Source: Sulfurospirillum sp. (lineage in GTDB: Bacteria > Campylobacterota > Campylobacteria > Campylobacterales > Sulfurospirillaceae). From it: a stretch of 32,835 nt of DNA. Under the pieces are notes generated by a model that did no database searches, had not been told where the DNA came from, and saw only the letters and a list, made by a program, of their open reading frames with translations. The position numbers were made by a program, and so were the translations under genes. The DNA lies in assembly GCA_026987955.1 (NCBI GenBank), contig JALSME010000094.1:1-32835 (forward strand), written 5' to 3'. Positions 28,267-32,835 of this stretch are shown here, piece after piece; the first letter of the stretch is position 1, and each line of letters starts with the position of its first letter.

Positions 28267-28290
28267 TATCTTTTTTATTGGGAGCCTACC

Positions 28291-29160
28291 ATCACTGCTT
28301 TTATACAAGGTTTTTTAGTTAGTATCGGTCTTATAGCTGCGATTGGTGCACAAAATATCTATGTACTTAAGCGAGGCCTTCTAAAAGAGTCTGTTTTTGC
28401 TGTAGCTCTTACTTGCTCACTTATAGATGCTCTTTTTATTAGACTTCTTGCATAACCCCTTGTAGTCTCAGAGAAATTAGAAGTAGTGAGATTGTGCAAA
28501 ACCTTTTTTGAGTAATAGCCGTAGCTATTGCGATGAAAAATTTTGTGCAAGATTGCTACTTCTAATTTCTCCCTGCGGGCAACTCATAGATAAGTTTGAG
28601 CTTCGTTAGCTTATCTCATCCGTAGCTACGGCTACGCAAGAGATAAACTGCCTCACTCAAACTTATCTATGAGTTGCTGAGACTGCAAGGGGTTATGCAA
28701 GAAGTCTATTGTTTCTGGCGTCAAAGGCTTGGGTAAATTTTTAGAGATTTTTCCCTCTTTTATAACATATATAACTTGGTTTGGTATTGTATTTTTAGTA
28801 GCATATGGAATCATGGCTCTAAAATCAGCTGCATCGAAGCACTCAATAACTGTAGATACCAACTCAAATAAAAAAGCAACTTCGGCTATAGTATTGACCC
28901 TGTTTTCACTCTCTTTTTTAAATCCTCATGTCTATATTGATACACTCATACTCATAGGAACTATAGGTAGCAAATACATAGGCACTGATCAAAACTTTTT
29001 TGTTATAGGTGCTATATCTGCCTCTTTTATCTGGTTTTTCTCTTTGGCTTATGGGAGTAGAGTTTTGATACCACTATTTAAAAAACCCATAACTTGGAAG
29101 TTTTTAGATCTTTTTACTGCATTGATTATGTTTTTTGTAGCATATTCACTTGTGGCTTAA
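28291..29160 (+). pseudogene. argO: argO/LysE-family amino acid exporter, interrupted by structured element copy 2
   Basis: Codons 28291-28440 encode the N-terminus (TAFIQGFLVSIGLIAAIGAQ, then NIYVLKRGLL and SLIDALFI). After the insertion at 28441-28707 the frame resumes at SGVKGLGKFLEIFPSF and runs to LNPHVYIDTLILIGTIG, ASFIWFFSLAYGSR and the TAA at 29158-29160. Removing the insertion and one ATT copy restores LFIVSGV exactly in line with the LysE family (E. coli LICAGIFG). The rest of the frame is intact, so the disruption looks recent. The expected start is ATC at 28291 behind GGGAG rather than ATG, a second possible lesion. Intact, it would export arginine or lysine. Confidence 0.88.
28441..28707 (-). 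mobile_element. Structured non-coding element, copy 2, inserted in argO
   Basis: A 267-bp element flanked by ATT at 28438-28440 and 28708-28710, a 3-bp target duplication. Outer arms 28441-28471 and 28677-28707 pair over 31 positions with one mismatch (T28463/G28685). Relative to copies 1 and 3 it is inverted: hairpin B (28472-28570) comes first, then linker CCCTGCGGG, then hairpin A (28579-28677). On the minus strand hairpin A has TGAGGCA facing AACGAAG and hairpin B has CAATCTT facing AATCTCA, the same internal loops as copy 1. The core GCAATCTTGCACAAAA is identical to copy 1. Apical palindrome CCGTAGCTACGG lies at 28620-28631. It contains no transposase and is probably non-autonomous. The 3-bp ANT-type duplication would suit IS5/ISL2-group transposases, which is only a suggestion. 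Confidence 0.85.
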
Positions 29161-32531: not shown

Positions 32532-32555
32532 TTTTTCTCTCTTTTAGTTATAATA

Positions 32556-32822
32556 TAGCCATCCAAGAACAAACTAAGGCATACTAGCGATAAGAGAAGT
32601 ATGCAATTGCGAGGCAAAAGGTTGCAAGAGCTACTAGTAGCTTTAAAACCTTTTAACGAAGTCAAGTGTATGCTTCTCTTATCGTCCTTTGGATAAGTCA
32701 TAAGTAAGCAATCTGCAAAGTATCTATCTCTCACCTTTACTAGTAAAGGCTTCAAGATAGCTACTTCACATCTCACTCACTTATGACTTACTAGTATACC
32801 TTAGTTTGTTCTTGGATGGCTA
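32556..32822 (+). mobile_element. Structured non-coding element, copy 3
   Basis: Outer arms 32556-32587 and 32791-32822 pair over 32 positions with one mismatch (C32580/A32798); pairing may extend two more bases each side. Hairpin A (32588-32684) has CGAGGCA facing AACGAAG and apical palindrome AGCTACTAGTAGCT (32629-32642). Hairpin B (32694-32790) has CAATCTG facing CATCTCA and apical palindrome CCTTTACTAGTAAAGG (32734-32749). Order, loop sizes and mismatch polarity match copies 1 and 2, while stems are different sequences. No clear target duplication; the exact ends are uncertain by a few bases. It lies directly upstream of ciaB. Confidence 0.72.
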
Positions 32823-32835
32823 TAAAGCCAGCATT

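Follow-up and report, generated by a model that had tools for sequence, protein, structure and literature searches.

Inverted-repeat elements with many end types and a conserved pair of inverse hairpins: a putative MITE group of the Campylobacterales

Three inverted-repeat elements of about 270 bp each lie in the window, by which we mean the whole 32,835-nucleotide stretch of Sulfurospirillum sp. DNA analysed here (contig JALSME010000094.1): element A at positions 127–392, element B at 28440–28708 and element C at 32554–32824. From their sequences and covariation, we consider it likely that they belong to a distinctive kind of MITE that combines many types of TIR with inverse twin hairpins, the hairpins being under selection for structure and probably acting as RNA.

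The elements share a common plan. Read with hairpin alpha first, an outer arm (P1, about 32 bp) is followed by alpha, a CCC-NNN-GGG mini-hairpin, hairpin beta and the returning arm, a four-way-junction layout in which the internal loop of alpha is YGAGGC/AACGAAG and that of beta is GCAATCT/ATCTCAC. Element A (+ strand, alpha first; F3 ends, AGGGTACCTCT) was delimited by its inverted repeats, its fold and an alpha-model match at 162–249. Its left arm (127–159) pairs with the right arm located by inverted-repeat comparison (360–392), and between them lie alpha (162–249; loop strands GAGGCA at 181–186 and AACGAAG at 225–231), the mini-hairpin GCCC-ATA-GGGC (252–262, from sequence reading and fold) and beta (261–361; loop strands GCAATCT at 276–282 and ATCTCAC at 340–346), whose inverse strand is alpha-like and gives a weak alpha-model match on the − strand (267–355). 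Element B, on the strand opposite to A and C and with F1 ends (TAGACTTCTTGCATAACC), sits within a LysE-type gene and has alpha first on the − strand. Its outer arm at 28440–28471, whose outer bases are the IS5-family TIR, pairs with a second arm at 28677–28708 found by inverted-repeat comparison, and it encloses beta (28471–28571; loop strands within 28486–28556), a mini-hairpin read from the sequence as CCC-TGC-GGG (28571–28579; CCC-GCA-GGG when read alpha first) and alpha (28583–28673; loop strands within 28601–28654), which was found by both the loop pattern and the alpha model. The original prediction, which had placed this element at 28441–28707, is thereby extended by one nucleotide on each side. 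Element C (+ strand, alpha first; F2 ends, TATAGCCATCC) likewise emerged from inverted repeats, fold and the alpha model; its left arm (32554–32587) pairs with the right arm from inverted-repeat comparison (32791–32824), and alpha (32592–32680; loop strands within 32611–32661; pattern and alpha-model match), the mini-hairpin TCC-TTT-GGA (32685–32693, read from the sequence) and beta (32694–32790; loop strands within 32708–32776) follow in this order. The bases of the mini-hairpin have changed among A, B and C yet still pair.

Alpha and beta are in inverse orientation within an element. Read on its other strand (GTGAGAT..AGATTGC), beta is related to alpha, though diverged from it, and gives weak alpha-model matches on the opposite strand in A and B; many subfamilies (F4, for example) carry two inverse-oriented alphas. 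Base pairing between the alpha and beta loops was considered and rejected, since the loop variants of an element's two hairpins do not match each other. In each element the two outer arms are 97% complementary, in agreement with the original prediction of nearly complete self-complementarity. The z-scores of the single-strand folds are −17.9 for B, −12.5 for A and −13.8 for C, and none of the shuffled sequences is equally stable. The same prediction held that the outer arms are unrelated between the copies while the loops are kept. Within the window this is what we find, as the arm identities (0.38 for A/B, 0.45 for A/C and 0.38 for B/C, against a shuffled mean of 0.44) reveal no likeness beyond that of shuffled sequence, and the beta cores of A and B are 86% identical; outside it, however, the arms of C are akin both to those of another subfamily (TATAGCCATCCAAGAACAAACTAAGG versus TATACCCATCCTAAACCAAACTAACG) and to those of sister copies in relatives.

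The elements are multicopy and widespread. Loop patterns (GAGGCAN{28,58}AACGAAG for alpha and GCAATCTN{42,72}ATCTCAC for beta) match 30 and 14 times, respectively, in the genome of origin, where the reversed patterns give no match; two of the 30 alpha matches (L001 and L011) look like chance matches inside genes. An alpha covariance model finds 72 matches there at E <= 0.01. Every arm type is multicopy, which makes A, B and C members of three subfamilies, and the genome has no fewer than seven end types: F1, F2 and F3 as given above, F4 (AACTGACCTTACGCAC), F5 (TATACCCATCC, visibly related to F2), F6 (ATGAGACCACTG) and F8 (TAAGTACCTAACCC). Several of its contigs (C62, C67, C88, C136 and others) start or stop inside an element; the repeat thus breaks the assembly, and the true copy number is probably higher. 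Pattern matches occur in 39 of 44 genomes of the same GTDB family, many of them chance matches in the larger genomes, in which the reversed control matches too. The covariance model is positive in 68 of 397 sampled genomes of the phylum, representing 25 genera, and the matches listed all fall in the same order (Campylobacterales). In other families the elements mostly agree in length and layout and draw their ends from a recurring set. Most copies are 263–282 bp long, and identical end types recur across families of the order; the MAGs that carry F1 ends with alpha include some labelled Arcobacter and Campylobacteraceae. Crude ORF calls place 31 of 40 copies between co-directional ORFs, a raw count on which we base no claim of a neighbour bias. 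A search of the window against Rfam 15 at gathering thresholds returned a tRNA only and a search of five related loci a single chance-level match; Rfam has no family like the element. A literature search, mostly of freely readable papers, yielded no publication on such elements in these bacteria, and the type is apparently undescribed. A search for plasmid and phage copies of element B gave no match.

Some copies depart from the plan. Four of five apparently armless copies proved to have arms, and one is a lone alpha. At L296 (about 1047391–1047479 of the single contig of G162), a lone alpha hairpin with no adjoining outer arms or beta is the sole significant alpha match of its genome, and would be either a relic or an alpha motif put to non-mobile use. 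At L294 the right end of an F6 element is tandemly duplicated, and at L035 a full element is adjoined by a derivative with an internal deletion of about 50 bp.

Several features support the assignment of these elements to the MITE-type non-autonomous DNA transposons. They are short, multicopy and dispersed, have TIRs of about 32 bp and hold no transposase gene, and the insertion site of element B fits a TA target duplication. Element B splits a gene for a LysE-type translocator (28285–29160), and deletion of 28442–28708, that is, of the element and one TA, restores a single open frame matching PF01810, as expected for TA insertion with duplication; the TA at its left end (28440–28441) has its partner at 28707–28708. 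F4 copies are flanked by TA in most cases, though not in all. No autonomous form, with a gene placed between its two hairpins, was seen. REP/BIME sequences are palindromes of 20–40 bp with a GTAG/CGTC tag and no long TIR. On size, TIRs and tag, membership among the REP/BIME moved by RAYT was rejected, the elements being about 270 bp long with TIRs of about 32 bp and no constant tag.

Partner transposases can be proposed for some of the ends. A complete IS5-family IS of about 910 bp in a genome of the same family (G003, L139 1448–2357) has the end of element B (TAGACTTCTTGCATAACCC) as its terminal repeat, and the two ORF pieces of this IS match NF033581 (IS5 family); F1 ends are identical to those of this IS over 19–22 bp, and IS elements with similar, variant F1 ends are found in the relatives G017 and G018. 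A search for IS elements sharing an arm sequence, which the original prediction had proposed, was thus successful for B. TIR identity to an IS5-family IS was seen for the F1 subfamily only, not for A or C, and membership as an "IS5-family MITE" is supported by sequence for F1 only. In a Nitrospira MAG, an IS5-like element of about 929 bp (L270 2892–3820) ends in TAGACTTCTTGCATAACCCC, nearly an F1 end. In G001, where F8 copies are present as well (L075), F8-type ends (TAAGTACCTA..) flank a decayed remnant of 521 bp that contains an IS630-type DDE_3 fragment. This match, spotted by eye first and checked afterwards, has 4 mismatches in 21 positions at each end, and loose end pairs (<= 6 mismatches) also occur at 9 of 193 control loci, some of them holding real copies; we regard the link between the remnant and the F8 ends as suggestive only. 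PF13358, the IS630-type partner, has no match in the genome of origin and is matched in 3 of 44 same-family genomes and 3 of 19 others; for the two transposase families searched, no partner was found in the genome of origin. For F3, no partner transposase was found in complete genomes with 20 or more F3 copies; one of these (G257) holds 23 F3 end pairs at MITE spacing (265–266 bp) but no pair at IS spacing, and it lacks a PF01609 gene. The F3 mover is gone, unlinked or of another family. The IS5-like elements of G253 and G292 were rejected as F3 partners because their ends differ. F4 ends also bound shorter hairpin elements (58–150 bp) without alpha, so that one TIR serves several element sizes, and a search for an F4 partner near unpaired F4 ends gave only short hairpin elements and ordinary-looking ORFs. 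F4-ended hairpin elements of about 58–121 bp that lack alpha were noted at L123, L127, L131 and L133 (in G001, G003 and G009). Transposase-specific subfamilies, one of the two explanations originally offered for the differing arms, are therefore upheld for the outer 16–22 bp or so, where F1 matches an IS5-family IS and F8, more weakly, the decayed IS630-type remnant.

The combination of differing stems and kept loops would have a simple account in a conserved structure whose helices are saturated with change. In 25 nonredundant alphas aligned with MAFFT without reference to structure, 26 of the 29 pairs have changed on both sides; 247 cells are compensated, and the share of paired cells is 90.9%, as against 35–47% when the partner is slid. 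A set of 44 copies, for the most part from other families, gives two-sided changes at 28 of 29 alpha pairs, 494 compensated cells and 92.2% of cells paired (32–50% when slid); this alignment was fitted to the covariance model and hence leans towards it, whereas the 25-alpha alignment was made without structure. Within the 25-alpha set the loop bases do not vary, partly since the search pattern demanded them; among the 44 copies they vary mildly (TAGGC/AACGACG, AAGGC/AACGCAG).

The differences between close copies point to how the stems change. The 20 copies compared in G003 diverge by 6% on average; they vary at 29 pairs, and most changes are one-sided; 27 of these pairs include a non-Watson-Crick state and 6 include two Watson-Crick states, 4 of the latter also showing a one-sided intermediate. 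Furthermore, sister copies of C in G005–G007, with identities of 65–75% in P1 and 75–84% elsewhere, diverge to a similar extent in each segment and form a graded series. The expectation that gradual compensatory drift would leave traces of similarity was sound, and such traces appear once enough copies are collected. The base-by-base intermediates in G003, of the sort that the original prediction had named as its refutation, speak against a mechanism rewriting both arms together, as first proposed, and given the one-sided changes and the graded sisters of C no such mechanism is needed. Element A is a mosaic, with ends nearest to G292/G253 elements (0.77–0.80) and a beta core nearest to F1 elements (0.86–0.89), and L212 in G003 combines two block types; such mosaic copies show that cores and ends have been exchanged too. 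Drift, exchange of parts and the type of end thus all appear to set the subfamilies apart, and the arms look unrelated because the outer ends are TIRs of different transposase types and the remaining stems covary. At L024 (G000, contig C105, about 1885–2150), an apparent recombinant, an F1-type left end and alpha are joined to a right end that is F3-like, which leaves the outer arms unpaired; the beta of this copy carries an extra insertion.

Stems that matter only as DNA palindromes are expected to hold G-T and A-C mismatches equally often. In 58 alphas read AGGC strand first, pairs 1–14 hold 84 G-T against 6 A-C on one strand and pairs 10–13 hold 68 against 1, and the commonest state at pairs 11 and 12 is a tandem U-G. 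Beta has 19 G-T against 6 A-C on its inverse strand, and the outer arms show a slight bias only (72 against 47); all of these are raw counts in which kinship is ignored. Because of the one-strand G-T excess, each hairpin seems to act single-stranded, and the covariation together with the strand-specific wobble suggests that it probably does so as RNA. Each strand would then have one hairpin in working orientation, the first to be met by transcription entering from that side. Outside pairs 10–13 wobbles are rare (16 of 580 cells), and this low rate in the rest of the stem, below what we would expect of an RNA helix, is the main point against RNA. A further reading, which we hold as tentative and with somewhat more doubt than belief, is that alpha represents a functional motif of RNA (or ssDNA) not described before, and that an inverted pair of it travels in a selfish cassette whose structure has stayed the same order-wide through switches between several unrelated transposase end types.

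The main rival to an RNA role is that the hairpins act as ssDNA or as an extruded cruciform in transposition or replication, which we judge rather unlikely. The low overall wobble rate would suit it, as would the inverse orientation of the hairpins, which resembles transposon ends, and G-T is better tolerated than A-C in ssDNA too; the conserved tandem U-G at pairs 11–12, however, is an RNA-like feature, and the short alpha-less elements bounded by F4 ends imply that alpha is not obviously needed for movement. Complementarity could also be mechanical and unselected, if hairpin template switching (palindrome correction) rewrote arms and stems together. In its favour, the stems are nearly perfect and, between subfamilies, saturated, few wobbles lie outside pairs 10–13, compensated pairs distinguish some close copies, and blocks have been exchanged. 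Yet copies in the same genome differ mainly one-sidedly, 27 of the 29 variable pairs including a non-Watson-Crick state, and correction would also erase the internal loops and the strand-specific wobbles, both of which are kept. We therefore regard template switching as improbable, except as a minor contributor, given the exchange of cores between copies. It is harder still to credit that three unrelated MITE families of known IS types have similar loops by chance. The arms do belong to different TIR types, but dozens of subfamilies share the layout, the lengths of the segments, the loops and the scheme of pairing, the reversed patterns find nothing, and a single covariance model retrieves copies over an order with 28 of 29 pairs covarying, results that refute a chance origin.

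On the favoured account, that of MITEs with structurally selected twin hairpins, transposases of different specificities would move the elements in trans through their tips, while selection on structure would keep the hairpin pair in the copies that spread. Stems would change one base at a time and be compensated later, with saturation between subfamilies, and recombination between copies would reshuffle ends and hairpin cores. Each hairpin would act as a single strand, namely the one that gives its loop the sequence YGAGGC..AACGAAG, the working form most likely being the first hairpin of an RNA transcribed into the element from that hairpin's own side, so that the same RNA structure would be presented in either landing orientation.

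Descriptions of bacterial MITEs usually deal with a single species and a single transposase. In the present case the same structured interior persists in 25 genera and with about ten types of end, and it covaries strongly enough to support a family model. Whether, and why, the interior of a MITE is selected for RNA or ssDNA structure thereby becomes testable, and the breadth of the group suggests that such an interior can outlive its transposase. The covariance model is ready for annotating this assembly-breaking repeat in these genomes.

Among known systems, the IS5-family IS shares the F1 ends over 19–22 bp, whereas its interior has no sequence in common with the elements and the other end types are unmatched to IS5. 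RUP, ERIC/IRU and Correia/NEMIS are non-coding, multicopy repeats with TIRs, TA ends and strongly folding predicted transcripts; RUP is thought to be moved by IS630-Spn1, and ERIC and NEMIS transcripts affect neighbouring mRNA (PMC2229807). The present elements resemble them in being non-coding and multicopy, with TIRs, TA ends and a strong predicted fold. However, those repeats are about 100–200 bp long, with one end type each and a limited host range (PMC2229807), whereas the present elements are about 270 bp long, have a four-way-junction layout and an inverted pair of hairpins whose internal loops are conserved, and show many end types and an order-wide range. The CIR repeats of Caulobacter and Brucella likewise consist of two paired arms joined by a linker, with conserved structure, but contain a GANTC motif and have neither a long TIR nor an inverse alpha pair (PMC2229807). 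Pneumococcal BOX elements are also modular, with TIRs paired within the fold, and are transcribed; unlike the present elements, they are built of boxA, boxB and boxC modules with a variable boxB copy number and belong to one streptococcal group (PMC3049150). Finally, the repeat motifs of Borrelia plasmids are similarly mobile-looking, with many compensated stem pairs that were read as evidence for RNA structure, although they are much simpler stem-loops of one genus with no conserved internal-loop module (PMC2674063).
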